Positions 29,051 to 47,710 of a DNA stretch of 64,000 bases are shown one piece after another. Location: assembly GCA_945948535.1 (NCBI GenBank), contig CAMFBN010000006.1, positions 1-64,000 on the forward strand, in the 5' to 3' direction. The DNA is from an uncultured Clostridia bacterium. GTDB taxonomy: Bacteria; Bacillota; Clostridia; Oscillospirales; Oscillospiraceae. Every line of letters begins with the position of its first letter. Positions within the stretch are counted from its first letter, which is position 1. Position numbers and translations under genes: made by a program. The notes below the pieces were generated by a model. The model ran no database searches. It saw only the letters and a list, made by a program, of their open reading frames with translations, and had not been told where the DNA came from.

Positions 29051-29464
29051 TTACATATCCATTGCAGGGTTCATATAGTATACATTTTTCTGATTCAGTT
29101 TCTCCCGCAATAATTGCGCGGCTTCTCCGAACCTTTGGAAATGGACGATTTCCCGTTCACGCAGGAACTTAATCACATCGTTGACATCGGGATCGTCACT
29201 AAGCCTGAGAATATTGTCATAGGTAACCCGCGCTTTCTGCTCTGCCGCGAGGTCCTCCACCAGATCTGCCATGGGGTCTCCCTTGACGGCCATGCTGGCA
29301 GCGTTCCAGGGGCTGCCGGATGCGGCGGTGGGATATACACCCACGGTGTGGTCGACGAAATATGGTGCGAATCCGGCATCTTTGATCTGCCCATCATTGA
29401 GATTTCTTGTCAGCTGATGCACAATCGCGCCAATCATCTCCAGGTGACCCAGTTCCTCTGTACC
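29051..29464 (-). pseudogene. cotJC: Spore coat Mn-catalase CotJC, C-terminal half (split gene)
   Basis: Minus-strand GTEELGHLEMIGAIVHQLTRNLNDGQIKDAGFAPYFVDHTVGVYPTAASGSPWNA...EDLAAEQKARVTYDNILRLSDDPDVNDVIKFLREREIVHFQRFGEA; no N-terminal domain or start upstream. Confidence 0.93.
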
Positions 29465-29487
29465 CGGAGAAGCATCGGAAATGTTCC
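29460..29487 (+). other. Left attachment junction (core plus arm)
   Basis: GTACC-cgga-GAAGCATCGGAAATGTTCC. Confidence 0.85.
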
Positions 29488-29519
29488 AAAAAACAGTGGA
29501 CAGGCAATGTCTGTCAGTT

Positions 29520-31430
29520 TTAGCAGCACTCCATAAGGTAGGACTGTCCGGCTTTTACGGTCAGTTCGATGCTGGAGCCGTCCACCGGGCGGTACTCCAA
29601 GGGCGTTCCGAAGATATCCGTGTGTTCCTTAGGCGTGGTTGCGCCTACCGCGCCAAGAGGCAGACGGATTTTCACATCCTGCTGTTCCGTTGAGATTACG
29701 CCGACGAGCACATCATCCTCCCAGAACCGGGCGATGGCTACCACATTGCCTTCGGCGTACAGGAATTTCATACCGCCCAGCCGCAGCGCTTTGTGATCTG
29801 CCTTCAGGTGGGTCATGGTGTGAATCAGGCGGTAAGCGTCACAGGAGGGAATGTCCCGGCTCCAAGGCATGGGATAGCGGCAACCCTCGTTGGTGCCCAG
29901 CGTTCCGTCAATTTCCGCTTCGTCTCCGTAGTAGACAGAAGCCGCGCCGGTGAGCAGGAACTGGAAAATCACCGCCCCCCGGTAGCTTTCCTGAGAAATT
30001 ATGGGATTGTTGTGCAGGCGGCTGGCATCGTGGCTGTCAAACAGGTTAAACTGGTTCTCCCACATCACGTAGGGCAGCTTCGCCAGATGCTCCAGAACGC
30101 GGTTTTTCACATCCTGCGCCGTCATCCGGTAGGGCACGCTGCGAAGAACGGCGTTTCTCGCCATGAACAGATCCGGCTCTCCCAAAAACTGCCGGATGAC
30201 TCTGCCGCAGCCGTAGTAATTCATCGGCGCGTCCCATTCATTTCCCTGCAAATACTGAGCACAGTCGCCCCAGTCCTCCGCCAGAATATAGGCCTGTGGG
30301 TTAACAGCGCGAATGCTTTCACGAATCTCGGGCCAGAGAGTGTGGGCCAGCTGAAGCTCGTCCTTTCTGCCGAAGGTATCCGCCACGTCAAATCGCCAGC
30401 CGTCAATGCTGTAGGGTGGCTTCAGCCATTTTTTCAGAACAGAATCCTCCCCGCGGTAGATCACATCCCGCAGAGCCTCAGAGGTATAGTTGAGGGTGGG
30501 CAGGGTATCGACACCCAGCCATTTGTGATAGGAATTGTCGGGTGCAAAGAAATAGTATTCCCGCTCCGGGCTGTCCGGGTTGTTGTAGGCTCCGACGGAC
30601 TTATCGAAGAAGGCCCCGTCCCGATTAAACCACTTGTGAGCAATGCCGGTGTGGTTGATGGAGATATCCAGAATCAGCTTCATGCTATTCTCATGAAGCG
30701 CCTGGCTCAGCTCCGCCAGCGCCTGATCACCGCCCAGATGGGGGTCCACATGGAAGTAATCCAGGCAATCGTACTTATGTACAGAGGGCGCCACAAAAAT
30801 GGGGTTTAAGTACAGGGCAGTCACGCCCAGCTCTTTCAGATAGGGAATCTTCTGCCGGATGCCCTGCAGATCGCCGCCGAAGAAATCCATGCAGTAGCCC
30901 TTCTCATAGGGCAGGGGCGTATCTTCCCAGTGCTCCATGTGAATGGCCGGGTGACCATCCTGAGAGTATTCACCGGTGCGAACATCGTTTGAGGAGTCAC
31001 CGTTGCAGAACCGTTCCGGGAATATCTGGTAAAACACCGCGTCCTTGACCCACTCCGGCTGGACATAATCCGCCAGCAGCACGAAATCGTAGGTGTGATC
31101 CGGCACATAGGTGGTGATTTCCTTCTGCGTATAGAAGTAAATCACATTCTCACAGACCAGATAGAATTGGTACTGCATCCGATTTTCCGTCATCTGCAGA
31201 GGGGCTTCGTAGTAGACAAGCCCCTTTTCTTCCTTCCAACGGGTCATCGGGATCAACTGCTCCACACCGTTGGGAATGGTACGCAGAAAAACACAGTTCA
31301 CCGGAGCATCCCGGTAAAAACGCAGCCTGATGGTAACGGTTTCAAACAGCTTTGGGCAAGGGCTGCTGACGAAGGCAGGAGTGCCGTCGCTGTAGACGCT
31401 TTCCAGCCAGAGGTCATTGCAATTTTCCAT
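29520..31430 (-). CDS. Glycoside hydrolase family 13 (neopullulanase/alpha-amylase-like)
   Basis: VFYQIFPERFCNGD...GVTALYLNPIF...DISINHTG...GWRFDVADTFG...LFDSHDASRL. Confidence 0.93.
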   Translation of the reverse strand: MENCNDLWLESVYSDGTPAFVSSPCPKLFETVTIRLRFYRDAPVNCVFLRTIPNGVEQLIPMTRWKEEKGLVYYEAPLQMTENRMQYQFYLVCENVIYFYTQKEITTYVPDHTYDFVLLADYVQPEWVKDAVFYQIFPERFCNGDSSNDVRTGEYSQDGHPAIHMEHWEDTPLPYEKGYCMDFFGGDLQGIRQKIPYLKELGVTALYLNPIFVAPSVHKYDCLDYFHVDPHLGGDQALAELSQALHENSMKLILDISINHTGIAHKWFNRDGAFFDKSVGAYNNPDSPEREYYFFAPDNSYHKWLGVDTLPTLNYTSEALRDVIYRGEDSVLKKWLKPPYSIDGWRFDVADTFGRKDELQLAHTLWPEIRESIRAVNPQAYILAEDWGDCAQYLQGNEWDAPMNYYGCGRVIRQFLGEPDLFMARNAVLRSVPYRMTAQDVKNRVLEHLAKLPYVMWENQFNLFDSHDASRLHNNPIISQESYRGAVIFQFLLTGAASVYYGDEAEIDGTLGTNEGCRYPMPWSRDIPSCDAYRLIHTMTHLKADHKALRLGGMKFLYAEGNVVAIARFWEDDVLVGVISTEQQDVKIRLPLGAVGATTPKEHTDIFGTPLEYRPVDGSSIELTVKAGQSYLMECC

Positions 31431-31618
31431 AGACAATTCTTCCTTTCCTTTGTAGCACCCTGACATTGTATCAAAATGACAGAAAAAGTAAAGGGCATAA
31501 GCAAAGCTGTTTCCGGATTAAGACTTTTTGTTGAGATAGCTTGGTCAAAGCATATCCGAATCAGTTATGGCTTCTTGCGGAACTCATAAGAGAAGGCGAG
31601 AACCGACCCGCTGGTGTA

Positions 31619-32878
31619 TTATTTGCGTTTGGCAGATGTCTGCCTTTGGCGCTGTGGCAGCGTTACAGTGATTTGCAGTTTGCCCTTTGTGGGCTGGGAC
31701 GCATGAATCTGACCGTTGTGGGCGGCAGTAATGGCACTGGCGATGGAAAGGCCGATGCCATGCCCACCGGTTTGAGAGTTTCGGGAAGGGTCAGCCCGGT
31801 AGAAACGCTCAAACAGCCTGTTCAGATCACCTTCCGGCAGGGGAACTGCGGAGTCATTGCAGACTGTCAGCCTGAGCTGCTTACCGTGCTTTGACAGAGA
31901 CAGCATAATAGCAGTCTCTTCCGGGGAATACTTCAGAGCATTGTCCAGCAGGATACCGACCAGCTTGGAAATCGCCTTTTCGTCTGCTTCCATGGAAAGC
32001 ATGGGTTCGACGGCAATTTGCAAATCTTTCTTCTGTGTCTGCGCAAGGGTATGGAAGGACTGCGCCGTTTCCGCAATTACATCGGCAACCGGGATTTCCA
32101 GCAGCTCCAGCGGCGTTCCGCCTTCCTCCATCCGGGCAAGGCTCACCAGATCATTGGTCAGGCCTGTTAGCCTGTGAACATTGCTTTGGATATCCGCCAG
32201 CCACTCGTTTTCTCCCAACTCCATTGCCAGAACGTCTGCATCCGCCTGAATAATGGTCAAAGGCGTTTTGATTTCATGTCCCGCATCCGTGATAAACTGC
32301 TTCTGCTTTCCGTAGCTTTCCGCAAAGGGACGGACGATCCTGCCGGAAAAGTAGACCACAATGCCAAAAATCAGCAGCAGGCCAGCGGCTGAAAGGAGGA
32401 TACTGGTCAGCAGAAACCGCTGAAAGGCGCTGATTTCCCGTCCGCAGTCCAGAAATCGAATCCGAACGGTATCCCCATCATATTGCTTGCGGTAGCGGTA
32501 GATACTCTGAAAGCCGGTATCTGTGTCCTTTGCAAAGACTTTGGCAGCCAGGGAGGAGGCTTCGTCATCATCGATCATGGCCCCAACCGGAAGCTGGGTG
32601 TCAAGCACATTGCCGTCCGATGACAGAACCACAGAAAAGAAACGGGCATAGCTGTGCGAGTCCGGCGAAAATTGGCTGAACAAACCATTTGCCCCTGTTC
32701 CAATGGTGCCTTTGCTTTTCACCATGCGTCCCGGATTATCGACAGTTATTATTCGGTCCGCCTCTGACACGATGCCCCGGTAACTGGCAAGGTTGATTCC
32801 ACCTACCAGTACCACCAGCACGACAAGCAGGGTAGACATAGACAGAATGATAAAGCGGGCGCGTAACTTCTGGATCAT
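31619..32878 (-). CDS. Sensor histidine kinase
   Basis: FITDAGHEIKTPLTIIQADADVLAMELG...DNALKYSPEE...GHGIGLSIASAI. Confidence 0.94.
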   Translation of the reverse strand: MIQKLRARFIILSMSTLLVVLVVLVGGINLASYRGIVSEADRIITVDNPGRMVKSKGTIGTGANGLFSQFSPDSHSYARFFSVVLSSDGNVLDTQLPVGAMIDDDEASSLAAKVFAKDTDTGFQSIYRYRKQYDGDTVRIRFLDCGREISAFQRFLLTSILLSAAGLLLIFGIVVYFSGRIVRPFAESYGKQKQFITDAGHEIKTPLTIIQADADVLAMELGENEWLADIQSNVHRLTGLTNDLVSLARMEEGGTPLELLEIPVADVIAETAQSFHTLAQTQKKDLQIAVEPMLSMEADEKAISKLVGILLDNALKYSPEETAIMLSLSKHGKQLRLTVCNDSAVPLPEGDLNRLFERFYRADPSRNSQTGGHGIGLSIASAITAAHNGQIHASQPTKGKLQITVTLPQRQRQTSAKRK

Positions 32879-33546
32879 GTATGTTCCTCCAAAAGATACC
32901 CGGCGTTTCGCACCGCTTTAATGGCAACATTGGCGTTTAACGCATTCAGCTTTTTGCGAAGATAGGAAATATAGACCCAGACCACGCTGTTTTCCACATT
33001 GGAATCCAAACCCCAAATCTTTTCCATAAAACGGTCAGGGGAGATCAGCTGCCGTGGGTTTGCCATCAGCAGCTCCATCATCTGATATTCCTTGTTGGCC
33101 AAACGGAAGCTGCCGGTGGGAGAGCTTAATTCGAAATTTCTGCGGTTCAGGGTGAGGTTTCCGAAGGTCAGGGAGGCATCCACCTCCAGATGTCCTCTTG
33201 TCATGGCACGAATCCGGGCCAGCAGCTCCTGTGTATCAAAGGGTTTTGTCAGATAGTCGTTGGCCCCGGAGTCCAGACCCAGCACTTTGTCATCGACTTC
33301 TGCTTTCGCGGTCAGCATCAGTACAGGAACCTGCTTTCCCTTGGCACGGATAGCCTTTAAAACGGAGATTCCGTCCAGCTTCGGCATCATGATATCCAGA
33401 ATTACACCGTCATAGTCACCGTTTTCCAGATACTCCATCGCAGTCTGTCCATCGTATACGGCATCCACACTGTAACAGTTTTTCTCCAAGATATGTGTGA
33501 TGGCTCTGGACAGGGAACGTTCATCCTCAGCAAACAATAATTTCAC
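32875..33546 (-). CDS. OmpR-family response regulator
   Basis: MKLLFAEDERSLSRAI...DGVILDIMMPKLDG...LMLTAKAEVDDKVLGLDSGANDYLTKPF. Confidence 0.95.
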   Translation of the reverse strand: MKLLFAEDERSLSRAITHILEKNCYSVDAVYDGQTAMEYLENGDYDGVILDIMMPKLDGISVLKAIRAKGKQVPVLMLTAKAEVDDKVLGLDSGANDYLTKPFDTQELLARIRAMTRGHLEVDASLTFGNLTLNRRNFELSSPTGSFRLANKEYQMMELLMANPRQLISPDRFMEKIWGLDSNVENSVVWVYISYLRKKLNALNANVAIKAVRNAGYLLEEHT

Positions 33547-33702
33547 GGTCCATTCCTCCTTTTCGGCTATTGTACACCATTCACATTAACTATAGCTTAA
33601 ATTTGGAGGCAAGTAAAGCAGGCCAATTTTGAAATTTTTGTGTCTTTAAGGCTCAGTTATGGTTGGCGTGTTATGCTTTCCCCAGAAAAGGAGGAATCCC
33701 AT

Positions 33703-34422
33703 ATGGCCTATCAATCGGTGTTCAGTCGGTATGAGCTGAAATATTTACTGACCCCAGCCCAGAAAAAGCAGGTTCTTCTGGCAATGCAGCCTTATATGAA
33801 GCTGGACGACTACGGGCGAACTACCATACGAAATATCTATTATGATACCCCCAGCTACCGTCTCGTGCGGCAGTCGCTGGAGCGTCCCGCTTACAAGGAG
33901 AAGCTGCGCATTCGCAGCTATGCCCAGGCTGATCCCTTCAGCCCGGTGTATGTGGAGTTGAAAAAGAAATACGACGGCATAGTATACAAACGCCGTATCG
34001 CCCTGCCGGAGAGGGAAGCCATGGCATGGATTTCGGGAAATTGCCCCTGCCTGCGGGAGGAACAGATCGTGAGAGAAATCGACTATTTCAAATGTTTTTA
34101 CACCCCGCTGGAACCAAAGGTGTTCCTTTCTTACGAACGGGAGGCCTATTACGCGCTGGATGGTTCCGATTTCCGGGTGACCTTCGATGAATCCATCCTC
34201 AGCCGTCAGAGAAATCTGTCCCTGTGCGACGGAATATGGGGCACGCCTCTGCTGAGTGCAGGACAAACCCTCATGGAAATCAAATGTGCAGGCGGAATTC
34301 CGCTGTGGATGACGGCAGTGCTTTCTGAAGAAGGTATTTTCAAAGCTTCCTATTCCAAATACGGTACAGCATATCAGAAAATGATTTATCCATATTTACA
34401 GGGAGGACGCAAATATGCTTGA
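33703..34422 (+). CDS. VTC-domain (polyphosphate polymerase-type) protein
   Basis: FSRYELKYLLTPAQ...IRNIYYDTPSYRLVRQSLERPAYKEKLRIRSY...VELKKKYDGIVYKRRI. Confidence 0.92.
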   Translation: MAYQSVFSRYELKYLLTPAQKKQVLLAMQPYMKLDDYGRTTIRNIYYDTPSYRLVRQSLERPAYKEKLRIRSYAQADPFSPVYVELKKKYDGIVYKRRIALPEREAMAWISGNCPCLREEQIVREIDYFKCFYTPLEPKVFLSYEREAYYALDGSDFRVTFDESILSRQRNLSLCDGIWGTPLLSAGQTLMEIKCAGGIPLWMTAVLSEEGIFKASYSKYGTAYQKMIYPYLQGGRKYA

Positions 34423-35110
34423 CTTTTTCTTTCGGGGAGTCTTTAATACAGATATTTCCGGTGTGATTTCCTTCGGAGATTTCCTTTTGTGCATGGGCTG
34501 CTCGTTGCTGATTGGCGGGATTCTGGCCTTTAGCTGCCGCTATCAGGGACGGTATACCAAGAGCTTTCTGGTCACGCTCATGCTGCTGCCTGCTGTGGTC
34601 TGCACCATTATCATGATGGTAAGCGGCAGTGTGGGCGCAGGTGTGGCGGTAGCGGGAGCCTTCAGTCTGGTGCGCTTTCGTTCGGCACCGGGGACAGGCC
34701 GTGAAATTACCATGCTGTTTCTTGCCATGGGTGCGGGATTGATTGCGGGTATGGGGTATCTGGCATTTGCATTGCTGTTTGCTCTGATCATGTCGGTCAT
34801 GAATGTGATATACAATCGTCTGGACTTTGGCGAAAAGAAAAATAGCCAGCGGTATCGGACACTGTCCATCATGATCCCGGAGAGCCTTGATTACGGCGGT
34901 GTCTTTGACGAGGTGCTTCGCCATTACACCACGGATTACACGCTGACCCGGGTAAAAACCACCAATATGGGAAGCCTTTTCCGCCTGACCTACGACCTGA
35001 CCCTGCGGGAAGACGTCAGCGAAAAGGAACTGATTGACCAGCTGCGCTGCCGGAACGGGAACCTGGAAATCATGCTGTCCTGTCAGGAGAGCGCCCCGGC
35101 GGAGCTGTAA
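34415..35110 (+). CDS. DUF4956 membrane protein
   Basis: SGSVGAGVAVAGAFSLVRFRSAPGTGREITMLFLAMGAGLIAGMGY; overlaps the VTC gene. Confidence 0.9.
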   Translation: MLDFFFRGVFNTDISGVISFGDFLLCMGCSLLIGGILAFSCRYQGRYTKSFLVTLMLLPAVVCTIIMMVSGSVGAGVAVAGAFSLVRFRSAPGTGREITMLFLAMGAGLIAGMGYLAFALLFALIMSVMNVIYNRLDFGEKKNSQRYRTLSIMIPESLDYGGVFDEVLRHYTTDYTLTRVKTTNMGSLFRLTYDLTLREDVSEKELIDQLRCRNGNLEIMLSCQESAPAEL

Positions 35111-35122
35111 GGAGGAAGAGCT

Positions 35123-36979
35123 GTGAAGAATAGAGCAATGATCAGTTTTGTGCTGTGCGCCGGTATGATGCTGACAGGGTGTGTCTCCGGCAGCAGTGCA
35201 ACTGTGGCAACTGTTACCGCTGCGGGAACAGCGCCCACGGAGGCAACCATTGCGGCGGAAAAAACCGACATTTTCAGCGACCGGGATATGGACACATCCT
35301 ATTCCAAAACGGACAGTATTGCCGTTGTACTGACCGGTGACGCCGTCTCCTGTAATAGCGGCAATGTGGATATTTCCGGTACGACAGTGACCATCGAAAA
35401 GGAAGGCACTTATCTTCTCAGCGGAACACTGGACGATGGTGTAATCCTTGTAGATGCGGACAAAGCTGATAAAATTCATCTGGTTTTGAATGGCGTATCT
35501 ATCCACAGCGAAGCGAGCGCTCCAATTTTTGTCCGTCAGGCGGACAAAGTGTTTGTAACGCTGGCGGCAGGAACCCAGAACAGCCTGACAAACGGCGGCA
35601 GCTTCACGCCGGATGGGGATACCAATGTGGACGCGGTGATTTTCTCCAAGGAGGACCTGACTCTGAACGGAACCGGAACGCTGACCATTACCAGTCCCGG
35701 CGGGCACGGCGTTGTCTCCAAGGATTCCCTGAAAATAACCGGGGGCACCTACGCCATTGACGCGGAGGCCCACGGACTGTGCGGCAAGGATGCGGTGAGC
35801 ATTGCGGATGGCACCTTTGATATCATCGCCGGGAAGGACGGCATTCACGCTGAAAACAGCGAGGACGCAGAGCTGGGCAGAGTCTATCTGGAAAACGGCG
35901 CCTATCGCATCAACGCTGAAGGAGACGGCATCAGCGCTTCCGGGAGCTGTCGGATTGTGGACGGAGACTATGCCATCACAACTGGCGGCGGCAGCGAGAA
36001 CGCCCAAAAGCCTGCCTCCAATCCGGGCTTTGGCAGAGGACAGAAGGGCGGAGGTACCCCCGCTGGCAAACCGCAGTTTGATTCTCAGGACTTCCCGGAA
36101 CGGGGAGCGGACGGAAAGGGCGGAATCAAGGGAATGGAACGAATAGATCCGCCCCAGGAGCCTGCGGGGGGACAGGAGCCCGCAGCTACCACGGCGGAAG
36201 CCGATACCGTCAGCACCAAGGGCATCAAGGCAAAAAGCCTGACCATTGAGGGCGGTACCTTCACCATCGATTCTGCCGATGACGGTCTCCATACCGATGG
36301 AAATCTGACCCTTCGAGGCGGAACACTGGAAATTGCCTCCGGCGACGACGGCATCCACGCTGATGATACTGTGACCATTGCTTCCGGCGCCATCCACATT
36401 ACGGAAAGCTATGAGGGAATCGAGGGTCAGCACGTTGTCATTCAGGGCGGCGAGATCACGCTGACGGCCACCGACGACGGCCTGAACGCCGCAGGCGGTA
36501 TGGATGGCAGTGGCTTTGGCAAACGCGGCGATACCTTCGCCAAGTCCGGCGAGACCCCCAGCATTGTGATTTCCGGCGGCAGCGTCGATGTCACAGCCTT
36601 CGGCGACGGCATTGACGCCAACGGTACACTGGAGATCACCGGCGGTACTGTGACCGTCAGTGGCCCCACCTATGGAGATACCTCTGTTCTGGACTACGAC
36701 ATTTCCGGAACAATCACCGGCGGCGCCTTCATTGGTACAGGCGCGTCCTCAATGGCACAGAACTTCTCCGTCAGCACGCAGGGGGTAATCTGCGTGAATG
36801 TGGGCGCACAGAACGCAGGCACGAACATCACCTTGACGGACCATAATGGAACGGTTGTCCTGTCCCACACGCCGGCACTGGACTATGAAATTGTGATTCT
36901 CAGTGCTCCTTCGATTCAGTCGGGCGAAAGCTATACACTGAACGTTGGCGGTTCCACGCAGGTATCCACCGCGAAATAA
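35123..36979 (+). CDS. Carbohydrate-binding beta-helix lipoprotein (Cthe_2159/DUF4353-like)
   Basis: Lipobox LTGCVSG; repeated TIEGGTFTIDSADDGLHTDGNLTLRGGTLEIASGDDGIHADD units. Confidence 0.85.
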   Translation: MKNRAMISFVLCAGMMLTGCVSGSSATVATVTAAGTAPTEATIAAEKTDIFSDRDMDTSYSKTDSIAVVLTGDAVSCNSGNVDISGTTVTIEKEGTYLLSGTLDDGVILVDADKADKIHLVLNGVSIHSEASAPIFVRQADKVFVTLAAGTQNSLTNGGSFTPDGDTNVDAVIFSKEDLTLNGTGTLTITSPGGHGVVSKDSLKITGGTYAIDAEAHGLCGKDAVSIADGTFDIIAGKDGIHAENSEDAELGRVYLENGAYRINAEGDGISASGSCRIVDGDYAITTGGGSENAQKPASNPGFGRGQKGGGTPAGKPQFDSQDFPERGADGKGGIKGMERIDPPQEPAGGQEPAATTAEADTVSTKGIKAKSLTIEGGTFTIDSADDGLHTDGNLTLRGGTLEIASGDDGIHADDTVTIASGAIHITESYEGIEGQHVVIQGGEITLTATDDGLNAAGGMDGSGFGKRGDTFAKSGETPSIVISGGSVDVTAFGDGIDANGTLEITGGTVTVSGPTYGDTSVLDYDISGTITGGAFIGTGASSMAQNFSVSTQGVICVNVGAQNAGTNITLTDHNGTVVLSHTPALDYEIVILSAPSIQSGESYTLNVGGSTQVSTAK

Positions 36980-37032
36980 ACGCATAGGCCGGGACTCCCA
37001 CCTCAGGGAGTCCTGGCATTCTAATGGATGAT

Positions 37033-37530
37033 TCAGTAAAGGGAACGGATAATCTCAGCACACCGCTCCAGCCCCAGTACACCGCTGTCAAGCGTAACAT
37101 GGTAGTTCTGGGATTGTCCCCACTTCTTGTCCGTATAGAAGCGATGGTAGGCAGCCCGGCGCTTGTCCTTGTCCTTAAGCCGCTGCTCCGGGGAAGCGTC
37201 CCGCTCACCGTAGACCTCAACAATCCGCTTTGACCGGAAATTCAGATCTGCGTGGATAAAGACCTTCAGGCAATCTGCTGTGTCCCGGAGGATGTAATCC
37301 GCGCAGCGGCCCACGATGACACAGGACCCCTTCCGGGCAAGCTCTGTAATGATTTGATATTGGATTGTCCACAGATAATCTTCGTTGGTAGGGCCATAGG
37401 CACGGTTGGAGAATACATTGGCAAGCACGCCGCCGGGGGTATATTCCCCGGCTTCCAGGATGTAGCCCTCGCTGAACCCGCTCTCCTCGGCAATTTTCTG
37501 GATGATCTCCGCGTCATAACAGTCTGCCAA
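37033..37530 (-). pseudogene. Cytidylate kinase-like protein lacking the N-terminal P-loop
   Basis: DAEIIQKIAEESGFSEGYILEAGEYTPGG...VIVGRCADYILRD; frame closed by a stop a few codons upstream, no GREFGSGG motif. Confidence 0.6.
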
Positions 37531-37652
37531 TACGCGCTGTTCCCAAATGCTGATTGGATTGTTCCATTGGTATCACGTTCCTTTGCATAATAATAGCGTG
37601 CAGCCTGAAAACGCTGGATTTACGCCGCAGGCTACACGCTTAATGGATGTAT

Positions 37653-37892
37653 TTAGTTCAGATAGTCGCCCACAGGACAGGAGTTATACTGTTTTATGAC
37701 TTTTAAGAGGATTGAGCCATCCTCTTGAGGAATTTCCTCCACAATTTTGTACTTTGTGCGGTTCCGACCCAAGTTTGCCTTATAATGCGCCACTTCTTCC
37801 GTTACCAGCTTTACTGCGTAATCGTGTTCTACATCCTCCTTCAGCAGGAAATGAAGTGTCTGGCAGATGCACGTCGCTTTTACCCGTTTCAT
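37653..37892 (-). CDS. Small conserved hypothetical protein
   Basis: MKRVKATCICQTLHFLLKEDVEHDYAVKLVTEEVAHYKANL...; preceded by an AGTGGCA/TGCCACT inverted-repeat leader. Confidence 0.6.
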   Translation of the reverse strand: MKRVKATCICQTLHFLLKEDVEHDYAVKLVTEEVAHYKANLGRNRTKYKIVEEIPQEDGSILLKVIKQYNSCPVGDYLN

Positions 37893-38115
37893 TCTGATAC
37901 CCTCTTTCAAAAATAGTGGCACCTCTGCGCAACTGGATTTACGCAGAGATGCCACTCGTTACAATCATAGTATACTTCGTTTTGTGATGGGTTGCAAAGG
38001 ACAATTTACACAAAAAACAGCCGTTTTCCTTTGGGAAAAACTGCCTTTGCAATTGCGGGCCCATTTTTGATACAATATGGTTGTATTCAATTGCCCAGTG
38101 GAAGGATGATGAAAC

Positions 38116-38595
38116 GTGTATCGGAAAGGCGACTATATCAGCTATAACGGACATGGTGTCTGCCGGATCGGAGATATTCGAAAAATGAACTTTGGAAATG
38201 GGGAACAGGAATACCTTGTGATTGAACCGATTGCTTCCGGCAGCGCGACGATTTACCTGCCGGCGGAGAATCCAAAGGCGCAGACGCGGATGCGTCCGGT
38301 GCTGACCCGGGAAGAAATCGATTCTATCATTTTCAGTGTCAGAAACGACCAAATGCCGTGGATACTGGATCGTAAGGCCAGAATGGCTCTGTTCCAGCAG
38401 ATACTGTCCCGGAGAGATACACGGGAACTGCTTCTGCTGGCAAGCTGTCTGCACAAGCGAAAAATAGAAGCAGGACTCCCGACCAGTGAAATGGATATCC
38501 TGCATAAAGTGGAGGGTATGATTGAGCAGGAGTTTTCCTTTGCTCTGAATATCAGCAGGGCGGAGATTGGACAGTACATTCGAGATCGGCTGTGA
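38116..38595 (+). CDS. CarD family transcriptional regulator
   Basis: MYRKGDYISYNGHGVCRIGDIRKMNFGNGEQEYLVIEP; GTG start. Confidence 0.85.
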   Translation: MYRKGDYISYNGHGVCRIGDIRKMNFGNGEQEYLVIEPIASGSATIYLPAENPKAQTRMRPVLTREEIDSIIFSVRNDQMPWILDRKARMALFQQILSRRDTRELLLLASCLHKRKIEAGLPTSEMDILHKVEGMIEQEFSFALNISRAEIGQYIRDRL

Positions 38596-38661
38596 GATGC
38601 AGCCAGACCTCAGACATCCTTCAAAGAAGGGGCGCACAATGATTATGTCCCCATGAAAAAT

Positions 38662-38698
38662 GGAAAGGACTCGGGCAGAAGTGCCTGAGTCCTTTCCG
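38662..38698. terminator. Strong hairpin
   Basis: GGAAAGGACTCGGGCA-gaag-TGCCTGAGTCCTTTCC. Confidence 0.7.
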
Positions 38699-38787
38699 CT
38701 TTGCGTTATGAACACATAGGTTCCCTCGGGAACCTATGAATAAATCACCTGCGGCTGAGCAGCGGGCCTTTTGCTTTCCCAGTGCGG

Positions 38788-38831
38788 TTTGAAAAACAGG
38801 AAATACACACAGTATTCTTCTGTTTTTCAAA
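38788..38831. repeat. Long inverted repeat
   Basis: TTTGAAAAACAG...CTGTTTTTCAAA, with an inner AAATAC/GTATT extension. Confidence 0.75.
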
Positions 38832-38889
38832 TCTTCCGGGAAAACAAAATCTCATGCTGTCAGCTCTTGCTGATTTAATCAGAGCTTCC

Positions 38890-39423
38890 CTAGTTCCGAT
38901 TCGGAAAGCGACCGATTTGGTAAAATACCTCCGAAAGCTCATCTACGCTCTCTGCTTTCCCATTTTGGAGCCAGACCAGACCGGTGTTGTACAGGGAACC
39001 GGTGTACATATACAGCTCGTAACGTTCAATAGAACGTTGGGGCATATTCCCGGCAATTTCCTCATGAAACTGGTTGAGCTTCTCCAGAATGAGGGAGCCA
39101 TATCCAAAGCGGTGCAGATCCAGTATCTGCTTTTCATACCGGCTGAAGAATTCAAAACTTCTGCGCATATTATCGTAAGTATAGTAGTTATCGCCATCGT
39201 ATTGAACCTCTGCCCGGAACTGTTCCAGAACATCGGTGATCAGCGTGGTAATCACGCTTTCCTTCGACGAGTAATTGCGGTAAAAGGACGCACGGGCCAC
39301 ACCGGCTTCTGATATGATCTCCGTGACTGTGATGTCAGAAATACTTTTTTCATTCAATAGTGTTAATAAAGCGGCTGTGATCCGTGCTTTTACCCGTATA
39401 TTTGCTTCCTGACGTTTGTTCAT
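38890..39423 (-). CDS. TetR/AcrR family regulator
   Basis: ARITAALLTLLNEKSISDITVTEIISEAGVARASFYRNYSSKESVI. Confidence 0.9.
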   Translation of the reverse strand: MNKRQEANIRVKARITAALLTLLNEKSISDITVTEIISEAGVARASFYRNYSSKESVITTLITDVLEQFRAEVQYDGDNYYTYDNMRRSFEFFSRYEKQILDLHRFGYGSLILEKLNQFHEEIAGNMPQRSIERYELYMYTGSLYNTGLVWLQNGKAESVDELSEVFYQIGRFPNRN

Positions 39424-39630
39424 TGATAGCTCCTTGCAATATATGATATAAATACTGCGTTTTTGTCTCAGTTTGCCTTATTGCGGCAGTCAGTGAAATA
39501 AGATACAATTGTATCATTTCATTATATCTATTTGAAAGTCCCGTTGTCAACAGCTGACCATATGAATGATTACAACTTGCCGGATGGAAGGGACTGCGCC
39601 GATTATGTGGATAAACAGAAAGGAAACGCT

Positions 39631-40497
39631 ATGAAAATTGCGATTACGACAGACAGCAACAGCGGCATCACTGCCCAGGAGGCGGAGAAGCTGGGGGTTT
39701 TCTTGCTTCCCATGCCGGTGATAATCGATGAGGAAACCTATCTGGAGGGTTTGAATATTCACACAGAGCAGCTGTTTGCGGCGATGGAACTGGAGCGCGG
39801 TGTTTCTTCATCCCAACCGGCACCGGGCAGCATTCTCCAATTGTGGAATTCTATTTTTGAGCAGGGCTATGACGCCATCGTATATATTCCCATGACCAGC
39901 GGACTCAGCGGAAGCTGTCAGAATGCCGCTATGCTCGCGGAAGACTTCGAAGGCAGAGTATATGTGGTGGACAATCACAGAATCTCCGTGACCCAGCGGG
40001 GGTCGGTGCTGGAAGCGAAGCATATGGCGGACGCGGGATATCCGCCGGAAGAAATCAAAGCGTATCTGGAGGCATCTGCGTTTCAGGCCAGCATCTATCT
40101 GACGGTTGCGGATTTAAAGTATCTTCAGCGGGGTGGACGGCTCAGTTCCTCGGCGGCTTTGCTGGGAACGCTTCTGAATATCAAGCCGATTCTTTCCATA
40201 CAGGGTTACCAAATTGACGTATTTTCAAAGGTCCGCGGATTGAAGGCATGTGAGAAGAAAATGATCGAAGCGGTTCAAAACGATATTTCGACACGCTTTG
40301 CGGATGTTCCCATGGAAAAGCTCCGAATTGAGGCAGGCGGAACCCAACGGAATCAAGAGGACAGGGACCACTGGCAGTCGACAGTTCAGGCGGCGTTCCC
40401 GGGTGCGGCAGTGGAGTATGTGACGCTTCCGTGCAGTATTGCCAGCCATGTTGGACCGGATTGTATGGCGATGGCTGTTTTTGCCAGTGAATATTGA
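39631..40497 (+). CDS. DegV family fatty-acid-binding protein
   Basis: MKIAITTDSNSGITAQEAEKLGVFLLPMPVIIDEETYLEG...SSQPAPG. Confidence 0.9.
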   Translation: MKIAITTDSNSGITAQEAEKLGVFLLPMPVIIDEETYLEGLNIHTEQLFAAMELERGVSSSQPAPGSILQLWNSIFEQGYDAIVYIPMTSGLSGSCQNAAMLAEDFEGRVYVVDNHRISVTQRGSVLEAKHMADAGYPPEEIKAYLEASAFQASIYLTVADLKYLQRGGRLSSSAALLGTLLNIKPILSIQGYQIDVFSKVRGLKACEKKMIEAVQNDISTRFADVPMEKLRIEAGGTQRNQEDRDHWQSTVQAAFPGAAVEYVTLPCSIASHVGPDCMAMAVFASEY

Positions 40498-40601
40498 CAG
40501 ACGGCGCCTGCGGAGAGGTGATCGTCCTTGATGGAAATTTCCGCTAATGCGGGCGCATAACATAGAAACTATTGGTTGCATAACGGATATTTGCAGTATT
40601 T

Positions 40602-41921
40602 TTAGAGGGAATTTTGAATATAAAAAACGAGACCCGCCGCGTTGGCCAGGAACCAGCCGATAGGAATGGAGCACCAAATCGCGACCACGCCCAGCGGCGT
40701 ATGGGGCGCCAGTGCGTAAGACAGGGCTACGCGGGTGCCCAGAGAAATGATGGTGAGAGTCAGGGAAATGTGGGGCCTGCGGATGCCGCGGAAGTAACCG
40801 TACCAAAGGAACAGCACGCCGATGCCCACATACATGGCACCCTCAATCCGTAGGTATCGGGCGCCTTCCGCAATGATTTCTGTCTCACTGGCATCAACAA
40901 AAAATCCCATCAGATTTCCGGCGAAGAGGAAGATCAGAACGGAGATGGCAAGACAGAAGCAGGCAGAAGCAAGAAAGGAAATTCTCGTTCCCTTACGGAT
41001 GCGGTCTTCCTTTTTGGCACCGTAGTTCTGTGAAACGAACAGGGAGTAGGCGTTGCCGAATTCCTGTGCGGGCATATAGACGATGGTGTCAATTTTGACG
41101 GCGGCAGCGAAAGCGGCCATAATGGCGGCGCCAAAGCTATTGACCAGGCCCTGAATCATGAGAATGCCAAAATTCATGACAGACTGCTGGATGCCCGTTG
41201 CGACATCGTTGACAATGATTTCCCGAAGCCTGTGAAAACTCCGTCCTGGGGACTTGTCTCCACGCAGGATTGGGAGCCTGGCAAGTGAATAGGCGGCGAT
41301 GCCGATACCGGAGGCAGCTTGCGCGATTACCGTCGCCCAGGCAGCGCCGCCAACGCCCATGTTCAGGCCCACAACGAACCCAATATCCAACACAATGTTC
41401 AGTCCGGCGGATACGGCCAGAAAAATCAGTGGCACCATGGAGTTGCCCATAGCCCGAAGCAGATACGAGAAGAAATTGTAAAGAAATACGAAGAGAATAC
41501 CCACAAACACTGCGGAAACATATTCCCGGGTCATCTCCATCAGTTCTGTCGGCGTTTGCAGCAGATTCAGAATGGACTGCATTCCCGGGTAGATAACGAG
41601 GTAGATTAGCCCGGATACAACAAGAATAAACCAAAACGACAGCCGGATATCCTCCCGGAGTCTTCCATCCTCACCGGCGCCGTAGTCGGCGGAAAAGAAG
41701 GCACCGCTTCCCATGCACAGGCCGATGATAATAGAGGTAATGAAGATCATCAGCGTGTAGGCGGAGCCCACGGAGGCCAGCGCATCCGCGCCGATGCACT
41801 TGCCGACGATCAGCGTGTCCGCCAGATTATATACCTGCTGCAAAAGATTTCCCGCAATCATAGGCAAGGAAAAACGAATGAGCTTCTGAAAAATAGAACC
41901 TTCTGTTAAATTGATTTCCAT
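40602..41921 (-). CDS. MATE family efflux transporter
   Basis: IRFSLPMIAGNLLQQVYNLADTLIVGKCIGADALASVGSA. Confidence 0.94.
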   Translation of the reverse strand: MEINLTEGSIFQKLIRFSLPMIAGNLLQQVYNLADTLIVGKCIGADALASVGSAYTLMIFITSIIIGLCMGSGAFFSADYGAGEDGRLREDIRLSFWFILVVSGLIYLVIYPGMQSILNLLQTPTELMEMTREYVSAVFVGILFVFLYNFFSYLLRAMGNSMVPLIFLAVSAGLNIVLDIGFVVGLNMGVGGAAWATVIAQAASGIGIAAYSLARLPILRGDKSPGRSFHRLREIIVNDVATGIQQSVMNFGILMIQGLVNSFGAAIMAAFAAAVKIDTIVYMPAQEFGNAYSLFVSQNYGAKKEDRIRKGTRISFLASACFCLAISVLIFLFAGNLMGFFVDASETEIIAEGARYLRIEGAMYVGIGVLFLWYGYFRGIRRPHISLTLTIISLGTRVALSYALAPHTPLGVVAIWCSIPIGWFLANAAGLVFYIQNSL

Positions 41922-42310
41922 CTTTATAAACTCCAATCGTAGCTTCCGTATCTTTTCTTGATTTCAGCGTTGATTCAAAAAGCTATTTTACTGTAAAAGC
42001 GGCTAAATTGCAAGACACACCGGATGGAATGGTCACTAAAAACGGATACCGCAAATACGGCTATGCGTATACGCGCCAGTGCGCGCCAGCATGAATTCCG
42101 TTCTGCGCCATATAGCAGGGCAGGGGAGGAATGTCTGATGAAGTCGAAAGCAGATACATCAGTGGGAGAGGCGATTCCAGATCTGGATAAACCGGAATAC
42201 ATCATTTCCCGGCTCACCCGGAAAAATCTGTCCTCTGTTCCCTCGAAAAGAGGAATCTGATTAGCCTGTCCCGGCGGGACAAATGTTAAAATAAAAAACC
42301 AAAAGAGGGG

Positions 42311-42341
42311 AAAGCACCAGACGTTGAATCTGGTGCTTTCC
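42311..42341. repeat. Hairpin copy A (paralogous to 45498-45527)
   Basis: AAAGCACCAGACgttgaatCTGGTGCTTTC, preceded by a decayed small ORF ...VLCSLEKRNLISLSRRDKC*. Confidence 0.8.
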
Positions 42342-42394
42342 GTTTCGTAAGAAACCTAAAAAGCCAATTGAAAGGTTTCCAATATCCCTGCCGC

Positions 42395-43285
42395 TCAGTG
42401 CTTCAAGATCCGAATATAATGGTTTGCTTCGCGCAGCACATGATCTGCCAGCAAGGGAAGAATGATGCTGCGAATTTTGCACTGCTGTATTCCTTGCACG
42501 CCTGCTATCTTGAAATCCCGGAAGCGAATGGTTTCTGAAAGAGATTCTGCCATCTGCGTTTTTTGAGCGGCATTTTTGCTGTTTTCCAGAAGTTTGCCAT
42601 ACTCTTTTGCGAAATTATCCGCAGTGCAGAAGAGCTCTGCTTCGCAGGGGTCCAGCAGCCCCCGGATAAACTGGGCGTGCTCCATCATGATCTGGTTCCA
42701 GAAGCATTCATTTTCCTTCATGGAGCACTCGGACAGGTCACCGTCCCGCTCCAGCATTTCCACGAACTTTCGGTACAGCTTCGCCTCCCGCAGAATGTGT
42801 TCGATCAGGAGCGGATAATTCAGAGTGAACATTTCGCATCTTAATGCCCGTTTGAGAATGGTTTCCTTGAAATCGATCAGCCCAGCCAGAAGCTTTAGCG
42901 CAGTGCGGTTCAGTCTGTGCACTTTTTCCTGCATTTGGGTCAGATTACTTTGGCAGTCTCCGGGCCGTAAACACAGGGAATGATTTGTAATTTCCCTGGC
43001 AATGGGAATTCCGGTAAAGCACTCTGTCTGCTTTTCTGTCCAAGCCGTAAACTCCGTCACTACCTCTCCCGACTCGATCACATCCCTACCGACGACACCG
43101 CCTGCCAAAGTAACGGTGTCCCGCAGCAGTGCCTCGAAGCTCTTTTGGTAAAATGCTGCCCTTTCTGAGAAGGAAGGATCGGCAGAGGTGAATCCTGCCC
43201 GCAGGAAAAACGCATGCTCTTTCATGATTCGCCCGAAAAACAGGTGCAGCTCCAATGATTTTACAACATACCGGTTCGTATTCAT
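42395..43285 (-). CDS. DUF2935 family protein
   Basis: MNTNRYVVKSLELHLFFGRIMKEHAFFLRAGF...HILREAKLYRKFVEML...MMEHAQFIRGLLDP; RBS ggaggt. Confidence 0.85.
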   Translation of the reverse strand: MNTNRYVVKSLELHLFFGRIMKEHAFFLRAGFTSADPSFSERAAFYQKSFEALLRDTVTLAGGVVGRDVIESGEVVTEFTAWTEKQTECFTGIPIAREITNHSLCLRPGDCQSNLTQMQEKVHRLNRTALKLLAGLIDFKETILKRALRCEMFTLNYPLLIEHILREAKLYRKFVEMLERDGDLSECSMKENECFWNQIMMEHAQFIRGLLDPCEAELFCTADNFAKEYGKLLENSKNAAQKTQMAESLSETIRFRDFKIAGVQGIQQCKIRSIILPLLADHVLREANHYIRILKH

Positions 43286-43299
43286 AGTACCTCCAGACC

Positions 43300-45235
43300 A
43301 AAGCCAAATTTCGAAACCCTGATCGAGCGGTTCTTTGCCAATGAGGAGCTGCACACCGTCTTTTTCCATGACCATCTGTTTGCCAACATGCACCAGCAGC
43401 ATGGCCTGTTCGGCGCGCTGATCGTCGAACCCGCCGGGGCGGAATTTCTGGATCCCCACACCCTGTGCCCCATCCGTTGTGGTACGCAGGCAGTGATCCG
43501 CCGGAAGGACGGCACCGCATTCCGGGAGTTCTCTCTGTTCCTCCATGATTTTGCCCTGCTGTTTGACGGAAAGGGAAATCCTTTGAACCCACCGGAGCAG
43601 CCCGGTTCCCACGATGATCCCGGCGTCATGGGAATCAACTACCGCTGCGAGCCTATGCCAGAGCGGCTGAAATACAAAGACGACCCGGCACACATCTTCT
43701 CGTCTCTGACCTACTGGGACCCTGCTACACCTATGCTGGAAACCTATCCTGGCGAGGAGCTGGTGATCCGGCTGCTGGACGGGGCCCATGAGGAGCAGCA
43801 CGCCTTTAACATTGTGGGCATGTCCTGGGAAAAGAAAATCACCAACCCGAATTCCCCGGTGGTAGCAGCACAGACCATCGGCATATCGGAGGTCTTCAAT
43901 ATTCGCGTTGAAGAGCCCTACGCCGCCGGAGATTACCTCTACTACAGCGGCAGCGTGGACGATGTATGGCTTGGGCTTTGGGGAATTATCCGCGCTCATG
44001 CCGAGCCACTGGAATGCCTGCCGCCCCTGTGCGGAAAGCGGAAGAAACAGGTATGCCTGACGCCGCCGCCCGGGGCTTGCATCCACAAATTTGAGATTGC
44101 CGCGATTCAACAGGATCTGGAGTATAACCGCTACGGCGACCACGACCCGGACGGACTGCTGTTTGTTCCGCTGGAGGATGTGGAAAACATCCGCCGGGGC
44201 AGGAAACGGCCCGTTCCGCTGATTCTCCGGGCCAATGCCGGAGACTGGATCGAAGTGACACTTCACAATCTGTTTGAAAAACAGGTGCCCTATTTTGACT
44301 ACCCCTCCGTGCCGCTGGATCTGCGCCACAGGCCCTCCAACCGGGTGTCGCTGAATCCCCAGTTTCTTCAATACGACCCAATAAATGACTCGGGTCTGAA
44401 TGTGGGCTATAACGATGCAGAGCAGACCGTTGCGCCCGGGGAATGCAGAAAATACCTGTGGCATGCCGACAGGGGCCTGCTCCGTTCCTTCGGCGACCTG
44501 AGAAACCACAAGTATCACGGTCTGTTCGGCGCAATCATCATCGAGCCGCCGGGAGCCAAATACTACCGCACATTCAGTCAGGTGGCGCAAAACCATGAGG
44601 TGCAATCCATTATTACGGCGCCGGGTGCGGCAACCTTCCGGGAGTTTGTTCTCTTTGCCCACAACGGAATCCGAATGTTGGTTAAAGCGGGGAATCTCAT
44701 AAAAACCACGGAGGCAGGGGAACCCCACGGTGCCCACGGCGAGGTGGATCATGAGGACACGGGGGAGAAAGGCTTCAATTACCGCTCCGAACGGTTCTTT
44801 AACCGCTTTCAGAGGGTGCCTCTGGCTTCCAAACTTTTTGATTCCAAGGTGCACGGGGAACCGGCTACCCCGGTGCTCAAGGCCTATACCAGGGAGCGGG
44901 TGATCATCCGCTACCTGATGCCGGGAGATAAGCCCAGAAACACAGTCTTCCTGATCCACGGTCATGTATGGCGGGAGCAGCCCGGGAATCCACTGTCCAA
45001 TGTGGAGCCGGTGAAGGGGGCCATCAGCGTGGGCAATGTCTACAATCTGGAACTGCTGGGGGGCGCTTCCGACTGTCCCGGCGACTATCTCTACCGTTCC
45101 GGCGCCCTGCGCTGGGATGTGGAGTCCGGAATGTGGGGCATTCTCAGAATTCAAATGCGTACGGCGTTCTACACGCTGGCATCCTGCTACCGCAATGTGG
45201 GGCAGTGGTGGGAGAAGGTATGGAGGAAAGACTGA
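43300..45235 (+). pseudogene. Large (MnxG-like) multicopper oxidase, N-terminally truncated
   Basis: Frame open from about 43300 without a start: ...FFHDHLFANMHQQHGLFGALIVEPAG..., with two cupredoxin modules (HGLFGAIIIEPPGA; HGHVW). Confidence 0.75.
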
Positions 45236-45263
45236 CGGTTTGGATGGTTTGGGTGATTACAAT

Positions 45264-45512
45264 GGCATGTATCTTTTTCGAACCCCATATAGTAGGGGGT
45301 GGAGGTGCTGCCTGCTGTATCATAAGGAATATGTATACGTGGGAGGATCCATTCCAGAGCTGAACGCACAGGAACACAGGGATTTTTTGATTCTTCTGGA
45401 AAAAGCGGTTCTCTATTCTCTGGAGAATCGAAATCTGATCAGCCGTAATCAAAGGGACAGGTGTCTCATTGGGATCGACAACCTGCACGCAAAGGATAAG
45501 CACCAGACTTAG
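45264..45512 (+). CDS. Small ORF directly upstream of the serine recombinase (uncertain start)
   Basis: ...GGSIPELNAQEHRDFLILLEKAVLYSLENRNLISRNQRDRCLIGIDNL; a homologous decayed copy lies at about 42230-42290. Confidence 0.5.
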   Translation, partial: GMYLFRTPYSRGWRCCLLYHKEYVYVGGSIPELNAQEHRDFLILLEKAVLYSLENRNLISRNQRDRCLIGIDNLHAKDKHQT

Positions 45513-45527
45513 GGTCTGGTGCTTTCC
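45498..45527. repeat. Hairpin copy B
   Basis: AAGCACCAGACttagGGTCTGGTGCTTTCC. Confidence 0.8.
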
Positions 45528-45543
45528 ATATTGGCGTGCCTGC

Positions 45544-47124
45544 ATGGAGGCAAAAAAGCAGAAGGGAGCATTTGCCGTGTCTGTCAATCGATATGAACGT
45601 TTGAATGAGGAACACCGGCACCAGCAGGTGAAAAAGCGCGTTGCCGCATACTGCCGGGTTTCCACCGACCATGAGGATCAGGCCAATTCCTTTGAAAGCC
45701 AGCAGCGGTATTTTCGCCAATACATTCAGTATCACCCGGACTGGGAGCTGTATGACATTTTTGCGGATGAAGGTTTGTCCGGAACCACAACGAAAAAGCG
45801 CAGAGAGTTTAACCGAATGATTGCCTGCGCAGAAAACGGTGAAATCGACCTGATTATTACGAAGGAGATCTCCCGTTTTGCCAGAAACACATTGGATAGC
45901 ATTTCCTATACCCGGAAACTGAAACGACACGGAGTGGGTGTGATTTTTATGAGCGACAACATCAACACCCTGGACGGGGATGCAGAATTGCGCCTTGCCA
46001 TCATGTCCTCCATCGCCCAGGAGGAGAGCAGAAAAACCTCTGAACGTGTCAAGTGGGGGCAGAAGCGGCAGATGGAGCAAGGGGTTGTCTTTGGAAGGAA
46101 CATGCTTGGGTATGACGTGAAAGATGGAAAGATGACAATTAACGAAGATGGCGCGGAAGTGGTGCGCCGGATCTTTCATAAATTCGTTCATGAGGGAAAA
46201 GGCACCCACGTGATTTGCCGGGAACTGCGGGAAGAAGGGATTGTGCCGATGCGGGGGAAAGAGTGGTGCAATACGGTGATTCTTCGGCTCCTTCGGAATG
46301 AAAAATACTGCGGTGATCTGGTTCAAAAGAAAACCTATACGCCGGATTACCTGTCCCACGAAAAAAAGTACAACAAAGGTCAGGAAGAATTCGTAATCAT
46401 CAAAGATCACCATGCGCCGATTATTTCCCGGGAACTGTTTGATGAAGCAAATCGAATTCTGGACGAACGGTCCGATTCTCAGGCCGGGAAATCAAAGCAC
46501 TCCAACCGCTACCCGTTTTCCGGAAAAATCAAGTGTGGATGCTGTGGTGCAAGCTATGTTTCCCGGTATAAGCCCCGGAAGGATGGAAGCAGGTATAAAT
46601 CATGGAGGTGCTATGAAGCAGTGAGGAATGGTTCCCCCCATATTGACCCATCGGGAAACCACGTTGGGTGTTCCGGCACCGGTATCCGCAATGAAGACGC
46701 CGTCCATATCATGTATTTGGTAACCCGGAGCCTGAAATATGACAGAAAAAAGGTAGCAAACAATCTTCTCAGCGTCATTCAGCCGGTTATCCATCAGGAT
46801 ATGTCCGGCGTGGGCATAGAAAGCAGCCAATACCAGATCCAGCGTGAAAAGCAGCAGGAACGGATCCGGGCAATTACTGATGCGATTGATGAGATCATTT
46901 CAGGTGCGGCAGATGAGGATGTGTTTTACAAGCACATCCTGAATAAAATGGTAGTGATTGACTCGGAACATATCGAAGTATACCTTAACCTGCTTCCTTT
47001 TACATGGACCTACGCAGTATCCAGAGTGTTGCCCACCGAGGCCAAAGCACAACGGAGCATTTCTGATGCTTCAGTACCAATGTCGGTCAGCAGCCCCTTC
47101 AATTCGTCGAAGGGCATGGAGTAG
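45544..47124 (+). CDS. Large serine recombinase (alternative GTG start 45577)
   Basis: VAAYCRVSTDHEDQANSFESQQRYF catalytic region; recombinase domain; zinc ribbon KIKCGCCGASYVSRY...C...C; extends past the right att core. Confidence 0.95.
   Translation: MEAKKQKGAFAVSVNRYERLNEEHRHQQVKKRVAAYCRVSTDHEDQANSFESQQRYFRQYIQYHPDWELYDIFADEGLSGTTTKKRREFNRMIACAENGEIDLIITKEISRFARNTLDSISYTRKLKRHGVGVIFMSDNINTLDGDAELRLAIMSSIAQEESRKTSERVKWGQKRQMEQGVVFGRNMLGYDVKDGKMTINEDGAEVVRRIFHKFVHEGKGTHVICRELREEGIVPMRGKEWCNTVILRLLRNEKYCGDLVQKKTYTPDYLSHEKKYNKGQEEFVIIKDHHAPIISRELFDEANRILDERSDSQAGKSKHSNRYPFSGKIKCGCCGASYVSRYKPRKDGSRYKSWRCYEAVRNGSPHIDPSGNHVGCSGTGIRNEDAVHIMYLVTRSLKYDRKKVANNLLSVIQPVIHQDMSGVGIESSQYQIQREKQQERIRAITDAIDEIISGAADEDVFYKHILNKMVVIDSEHIEVYLNLLPFTWTYAVSRVLPTEAKAQRSISDASVPMSVSSPFNSSKGME
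47054..47078 (+). other. Right attachment junction (arm plus core)
   Basis: GGAGCATTTCTGATGCTTC-a-GTACC; arm is the reverse complement of the left arm with 2 mismatches. Confidence 0.85.
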
Positions 47125-47261
47125 CGCTGAGACAGATAGCGCAGGGAAGCGCCAAGCTCGCCATCCGGGCCGCCGTACTGGGAAATGATGATTGCCGCCA
47201 GCCGGGGATTGGTATTGGAAATTTTCACGGGATATTGCAGCTTCTTGTCATATACAAACAT
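47073..47261 (-). pseudogene. cotJC: Spore coat Mn-catalase CotJC, N-terminal half (split gene)
   Basis: MFVYDKKLQYPVKISNTNPRLAAIIISQYGGPDGELGASLRYLSQRYSMPFDELKGLLTDIGT, then non-homologous tail EASEMLRC... Confidence 0.93.
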
Positions 47262-47263
47262 GG

Positions 47264-47710
47264 TTACGCCTCCTTATTTGCGCAGTATTCCCAGGGCCAT
47301 GGGTCATCCAGCCAGGTATATCCCTCGGCGGTGGCAGGCATACCGTGGGTCAGCGGACCATGTTCCTGGATATACAGCTGCCTGCACTTATCGTACATTT
47401 GCTGATACTCTCGGTACAGTGCCAGCGCTTCCTGATCTTCCCTGTGCGTATCTAGGTAAAGTGCCAGCTCCTGAACGGCAAAGCCCAGTGACTGAAGCTC
47501 TGCCAGTGTTGTCGGCGGCAGTTCATACTGATTGACCATGCCCATAAACGGCAGATCCAGACCCGGGAAGAGGGTACCCCGAACCAGACCCTTTTTTGCC
47601 TCATATCTTGCGGGGTTTTCCATCTGGAAGGGAACGTAAGGATTCGCCAGAGGCGCCATGGCAGGTAAGCGCCCGTCCCGATAGGACGGTTCCTGAATTT
47701 GTCTGTCCAA
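47264..47710 (-). CDS. CotJA-CotJB fusion spore coat protein
   Basis: CotJA-like MAPLANPYVPFQ...GTLFPGLDLPFMGM joined to CotJB-like LQSLGFAVQELALYLDTHREDQEALALYREYQQMYDKCRQLYIQEHGPLT...YTWLDDPWPWE. Confidence 0.88.
   Translation of the reverse strand: MDRQIQEPSYRDGRLPAMAPLANPYVPFQMENPARYEAKKGLVRGTLFPGLDLPFMGMVNQYELPPTTLAELQSLGFAVQELALYLDTHREDQEALALYREYQQMYDKCRQLYIQEHGPLTHGMPATAEGYTWLDDPWPWEYCANKEA

Follow-up and report, generated by a model that had tools for sequence, protein, structure and literature searches.

Intervening elements and the split cotJC locus

In a 2023 paper, sigK, spsM, spoVFB and gerE were listed as the known targets of intervening elements in sporulation genes besides yabG, a handful of genes in which several of the elements are single-genome cases. 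Among the described systems, gin in gerE of Bacillus cereus ATCC 10987 is of non-phage type, splits a sporulation gene, and has an internal serine recombinase and a short shared core, and the gene is rebuilt upon excision (PMC5595907). The element described here resembles the members of this group (skin, SPbeta, vfbin, gin and yin): it interrupts the sporulation gene cotJC, carries its own serine recombinase and is bounded by a short direct-repeat core whose recombination would restore the reading frame. It was found in the window, the whole stretch of 64,000 nucleotides analyzed, from an uncultured Clostridia bacterium of the Oscillospiraceae (assembly GCA_945948535.1, contig CAMFBN010000006.1).

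CotJC is a spore-coat protein produced in the mother cell. In the window its gene is present as two halves, both on the minus strand. The 5' half (47074..47261; residues 1-63, including ligand Glu35) starts at 47261 with MFVYDKKLQYPVK and resembles a CotJC-type manganese catalase as far as ...KGLLTDIGT. The family likeness ends after Thr63 at 47074, from where the integrated reading frame continues into the element-encoded TEASEMLRCALASVGNTLDTA and reaches a stop codon 20 residues on. The 3' half (29051..29464) opens at 29464 with GTEELGHLEMIG (G-T-E-E-L-G-H-L-E), contains the ligands E65, H68, E136 and H169, and closes at 29051. Both halves independently matched Mn_catalase (PF05067), the N half with an E value of 5e-19 over profile positions 1-66 and the C half with 1.4e-28 over positions 63-198. 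A profile search of the host genome, a 112-contig draft assembly, gave no PF05067 match beyond these two. The core GGTAC is common to both junctions (29460..29464 and 47074..47078, minus strand) in the identical reading frame, and in-frame joining of the halves results in a 198-aa catalase without a stop codon (MFVYDKK...GLLTDIGTEELGHLEM...NPAMDM). The cotJ operon gene upstream of cotJC is a CotJA-CotJB fusion ORF (47264..47710, minus strand; PF11007 and PF12652).

An uninterrupted cotJC (82-92% identity) was present behind CotJA-B at the same locus in 13 of the 14 genus members examined. As in the window, cwlD was also in view at 12 of the 13 intact loci and radA at eight; in the fourteenth member, cotJC was truncated close to the end of its contig. 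The tested cargo genes were seen at none of the 14 loci. Since cotJC is intact and free of the tested cargo in these relatives, the 17.6 kb between the halves is an insertion. The origin of the window in a 112-contig draft assembly could point to an assembly artefact or a chimera. However, the same type of junction was observed in dozens of genomes, among them cultured isolates and the single-contig genome G225, and an independent recombinase accompanies each junction, which excludes chance or mis-assembly. For the phenomenon as such the artefact reading is refuted, and its overall probability is considered negligible.

A preliminary description of the window had placed the insertion immediately before the metal-binding ExxH motif, and this was confirmed. 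Positions 29464..29435 of the minus strand read GGTACAGAGGAACTGGGTCACCTGGAGATG, which translates to G-T-E-E-L-G-H-L-E-M, and the E-E-L-G-H motif starts directly after the Thr codon overlapped by the core. The ExxH ligand is the second Glu of this motif, E65 of CotJC, equivalent to E66 of the Lactobacillus plantarum catalase. In an alignment with the latter (1JKU) over residues 1-184, the ligands E35, E66, H69, E148 and H181 aligned with E35, E65, H68, E136 and H169 of the rejoined CotJC, so that all five manganese ligands are present in the rejoined protein. As the same description had proposed, the first ligand Glu is parted from the others, and the set is split one (E35) to four (E65, H68, E136 and H169). 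Neither half thus holds a complete dimanganese site. The claim that neither half can be an active catalase stands to this extent, at the level of sequence, together with the single copy of the gene in the genome. The integrated gene is likewise incapable, as shown at the sequence level, of yielding a whole catalase. The same description proposed that activity would depend strictly on excision; carriers of a split cotJC can probably obtain the enzyme only once the intervening DNA is removed.

Alternatively, both halves could be expressed and act together in trans as a split enzyme, and the N half could indeed be expressed from the cotJ operon. It carries, however, a tail of about 20 foreign residues that differs from each element to the next, a start is not conserved in the C half, and it is the conserved protein core that the breaks interrupt. 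Complementation is regarded as highly improbable, since neither a start nor a promoter is obvious for the C half itself and the N half runs out into meaningless residues encoded by the element.

The intervening element (29465..47078), delimited by the two junctions within one gene and by the empty site in genus mates, is about 17.6 kb long including one copy of the core. The predicted attP arms are GATGCTTC (29469..29476, minus strand) and its inverted partner GAAGCATC (47065..47072, minus strand), with GATGCTTCTCCGGGTACTGAAGCATC as the joint sequence in the predicted circle. A large serine recombinase with Resolvase, Recombinase and Zn-ribbon domains (PF00239, PF07508 and PF13408; phrog_95 integrase) is encoded at 45544..47124 on the plus strand. 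Its frame crosses the att core, and the last codons and the stop are supplied by antisense cotJC (47074-47124), an arrangement also seen at about 14 of the 26 site-A loci tested (site A is defined below); the tail of the recombinase would change in the excised circle. Just upstream lies a small ORF of about 66 aa (45312..45512, plus strand), and a hairpin, AAGCACCAGACTTAGGGTCTGGTGCTT, at 45505-45535 between the two is a possible terminator or attenuator.

The remaining genes of the element are cargo, assigned by profile matches. They encode an alpha-amylase-family glycoside hydrolase (29520..31466, minus strand; PF00128), a histidine kinase and response regulator (31619..33546, minus strand), a VTC-domain protein, a DUF4956 protein and a Cthe_2159 carbohydrate-binding protein (33640..36979, plus strand), cytidylate-kinase-like, CarD-like, TetR, DegV and MATE proteins (37033..41936), and a DUF2935 protein (minus strand; PF11155) and a multicopper-oxidase-like protein (plus strand), both within 42395..45235. 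The multicopper-oxidase-like protein gave a partial match, far below the cut-off, to the manganese oxidase MnxG (NF041487), and it rides together with the DUF2935 protein in an element that splits a manganese enzyme. A homologue of the Cthe_2159 gene was found on other contigs in some genus mates. No phage structural or packaging functions were detected among ten insert proteins, of which the recombinase alone matched a PHROG with an assigned function. Base composition was not distinctive, with a GC content of 0.520 in the element and 0.544 and 0.508 in the flanks. The cargo of other cotJC elements included sugar metabolism (L092), transporters and glycosidases. Cas9 with Cas1 (L081:3628-8510), Cas3 with Cas8c (L074:11230-16226) and a type I restriction-modification system (L093:4804-11880) were also observed in cotJC elements elsewhere.

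Integration sites in cotJC and their recombinases

Many split cotJC genes were seen in a first survey of 60 relatives. An order-wide sample of 348 genomes, 305 of them with a family match, was then analyzed, partial matches being listed for genomes without a strong full-length match. cotJC was split in at least 118 of the 305 genomes (119 with the window), which is a lower bound because full-length matches to a diverged paralogue hide some split cases. Among the genomes with a split gene, G225 (split at site A) and G178 (split at site C) are single contigs. The breakpoints fell into three clusters: at the ExxH motif (site A), inside the Glu136 codon (site B) and beside Glu35 (site C). Site A alone was used in 41 genomes, site B alone in 31 and site C alone in 22, while most of the rest were split at two sites and one, G218, at all three; two pieces could not be placed. 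The position before the ExxH motif is therefore not particular to the element in the window. Integration recurs at three sites in cotJC, of which this is one and each of which adjoins a metal-ligand codon; the preliminary description had overlooked this.

Junction cores were read at the DNA level for 48 junctions. At site A the core was GGTA(C) or a close variant in most junctions; the few site-A junctions with other cores are termed site A2. The site B core, GCAGCAGA, spans Ala-Ala-Glu136, and since the break falls inside the Glu136 codon, most N halves encode Asp at this position until rejoined. The site C core, GGnGGnCC, spans Gly30-Gly-Pro. In G218, where the gene is cut at sites B and C in addition to A, site A apparently holds two adjacent elements, with the A recombinase at one end and the A2 recombinase at the other (L096:8434-9999 and L097:3585-5162). 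In the single-contig genome G132 (L289 and L290), about 675 kb separate the cotJC pieces, whose order is unlike that left by a simple insertion and calls for an explanation of its own.

A fourth site at His169 was considered and rejected, as the breakpoint survey gave zero breakpoints there. Candidates for excised alleles were rejected as well. The full-length catalases in the split-cotJC genomes G018, G034, G058 and G059 are of another paralogue, 36-39% identical to CotJC, and in G259 the full-length copy was 71% identical at the DNA level to the split half of the same genome. The phage phi027 lies next to a CotJC homologue in Clostridium difficile, but there the gene is whole and outside attR, so this is a different case.

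All three sites lie at most four residues from a metal ligand, for which the probability is about 0.008 with three randomly placed sites. This proximity could mean that the position was selected, breaking the metal site being the tightest off switch. However, an insertion anywhere in cotJC would inactivate the gene, and the ligand codons belong to the most highly conserved DNA as well, which is sufficient to explain the choice of site. The cores ranked in the top 1-10% (1.4-10%) of cotJC 24-nt windows for DNA conservation, although the ranking was weaker with 40-nt windows. Sites beside ligands are best explained as conserved targets, given that the core windows are among the most conserved cotJC DNA. 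Choice of conserved DNA by the recombinases thus accounts better for the three recurrent sites than selection for a disabled active site, which is considered very unlikely.

Almost every element at these loci had one recombinase at or near an end. In a tree of 66 recombinases, those of sites A (28), A2 (5), B (10) and C (10) formed four separate groups with support values of 96-100, and six changes of site label were needed compared with 34.9 after shuffling. The tree resulted from a quick search, and site labels were taken from the adjacent junction, for L071 and the two site-A recombinases of G218 partly by similarity. By this phylogeny there are four recombinase clades, each with a fixed site in cotJC: two at the ExxH region, one at the Glu136 codon and one at Glu35. 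The recombinase in the window, a member of the site-A clade, was closest to recombinases of other families (76% identity, G275) and not to those of genus mates, pointing to horizontal spread. Among 85,462 species genomes, the 80 recombinases most closely related to the site-A clade were mostly located a few to about 120 bases from a cotJC piece ending near residue 62-69, and the remainder mostly had a more distant cotJC half or lay near a contig end. Cultured carriers with a site-A half next to the recombinase included Dorea sp. 5-2, Roseburia sp. 1XD42-69, Hespellia stercorisuis DSM 15480 and Ructibacterium gallinarum DSM 107454. The same arrangement of recombinase and cotJC was found in two faecal records named 'Bacteriophage sp.' and in several IMG/VR contigs. 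Named phages were tried as a source and rejected, as recombinases close to those of site A or site B were found in none of them.

Maintenance of the split gene and predicted excision

All five ligands were kept in every split gene examined, except where the gene's junction itself cut the codon, and these genes showed no genuine internal stop. dN/dS was 0.07-0.19 for split halves and 0.06-0.12 for intact genes, so that split halves evolve somewhat faster; at the genus level the split values come from very few pairs and the signal partly predates the insertion. The values favour use of the gene after rejoining. The host genome encodes SpoIVA, and its lineage is accordingly spore-forming.

The elements could instead be integrative elements of the ordinary site-specific kind, for which a dispensable spore-coat gene is a safe harbour and which exit for transfer only, the host simply living without CotJC. 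Loss of related coat catalases in C. difficile left coat formation unharmed (PMC11222575), and dN/dS is slightly raised in the split halves. In one relative the 5' half of cotJC is decayed: an in-frame deletion has removed about 30 residues, Glu35 among them (L212:10775-10867). Neither an excised form nor sporulation control was seen: the predicted attP of the element in the window was not found in viral contigs by pattern search, and a sigma-E-like consensus upstream of the recombinases showed no excess over shuffled sequences, in a test in which the cotJ promoter control failed likewise. Against this, reading frames and ligands are retained in nearly all split genes, even in C halves without a start of their own, and dN/dS of the split halves is far below 1. 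This alternative is considered rather unlikely.

Of 99 site-A recombinases, 84, including the one in the window, were directly preceded by a gene of the same small protein family. The ORF in the window gave no Pfam or NCBIfam match and modelled as two helices (AlphaFold2, pLDDT 87). Known directionality factors are of similar size (53 and 72 aa), and the small protein may be a partner or directionality factor of the recombinase.

The model we prefer, and consider probable, is that of a skin- or gin-like intervening element in a sporulation gene, docked by its recombinase at conserved ligand codons and excised during development. As its anatomy shows, the element entered by site-specific recombination at GGTAC, beside the codons of the ExxH helix; its position would reflect a preference of the recombinase for the most conserved codons of cotJC, conserved because they bear the ligands. 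The recombinase and a partner, maybe the small upstream ORF, would excise it precisely. By analogy with skin, SPbeta and gin, excision would most likely occur in the mother cell during sporulation, where frame and all five ligands would be restored, while the spore line would retain the element. cotJC would then serve as a general docking site in spore-forming Clostridia. A wider version is given an even chance: cotJC as a class-wide developmental docking site with four dedicated recombinase clades at metal-ligand codons, where cargo useful to the host, CRISPR-Cas and restriction systems included, stays in the spore line and is discarded from the doomed mother cell as the catalase is rebuilt.

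Comparison with known intervening elements

No report of cotJC splitting was found in the open-access literature, the scope of the search; cotJC is apparently unreported as a target of intervening elements, and its novelty is provisional. With at least 118 of 305 genomes, three fixed places and matched clades, cotJC offers a natural series on target choice by serine recombinases. The series also bears on the coupling of excision to development, and on whether accessory and defence genes of gut Clostridia regularly reside in elements of this kind. CotJC will also be wrongly called truncated or missing in many draft annotations. Since the recombinases are accompanied by their natural attachment sites and by a candidate for an accessory protein, the system is directly testable in laboratory strains.

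The skin element in sigK of B. subtilis and C. difficile (PMC5025042) shares with the cotJC element a large serine recombinase and a disrupted mother-cell gene, and its directionality factor CD1234 (53 aa; PMC10747680) has a possible counterpart in the small candidate ORF. Whereas skin is prophage-derived and controls a sigma factor, the cotJC element lacks phage structural genes, and the gene it splits encodes a coat enzyme. A spore-envelope or coat-stage gene is likewise interrupted by an excisable element, excision being predicted here, in the cases of SPbeta in spsM (PMC4191935) and yin in yabG (PMC10747680), but both are prophages or prophage-like. In cyanobacterial heterocysts, a serine recombinase for developmental excision is known as XisF of the fdxN element (NF041201). 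This family was the second-best NCBIfam match of the recombinase in the window (E value 8e-36, below the family cut-off), yet development programme, host, target and recombinase subfamily all differ. Compared with gin, the target is cotJC and not gerE, and one recombinase is present where gin has three (PMC5595907). The cotJC elements further differ from gin in their three recurrent sites and their wide spread in Clostridia, and their excision is a prediction.
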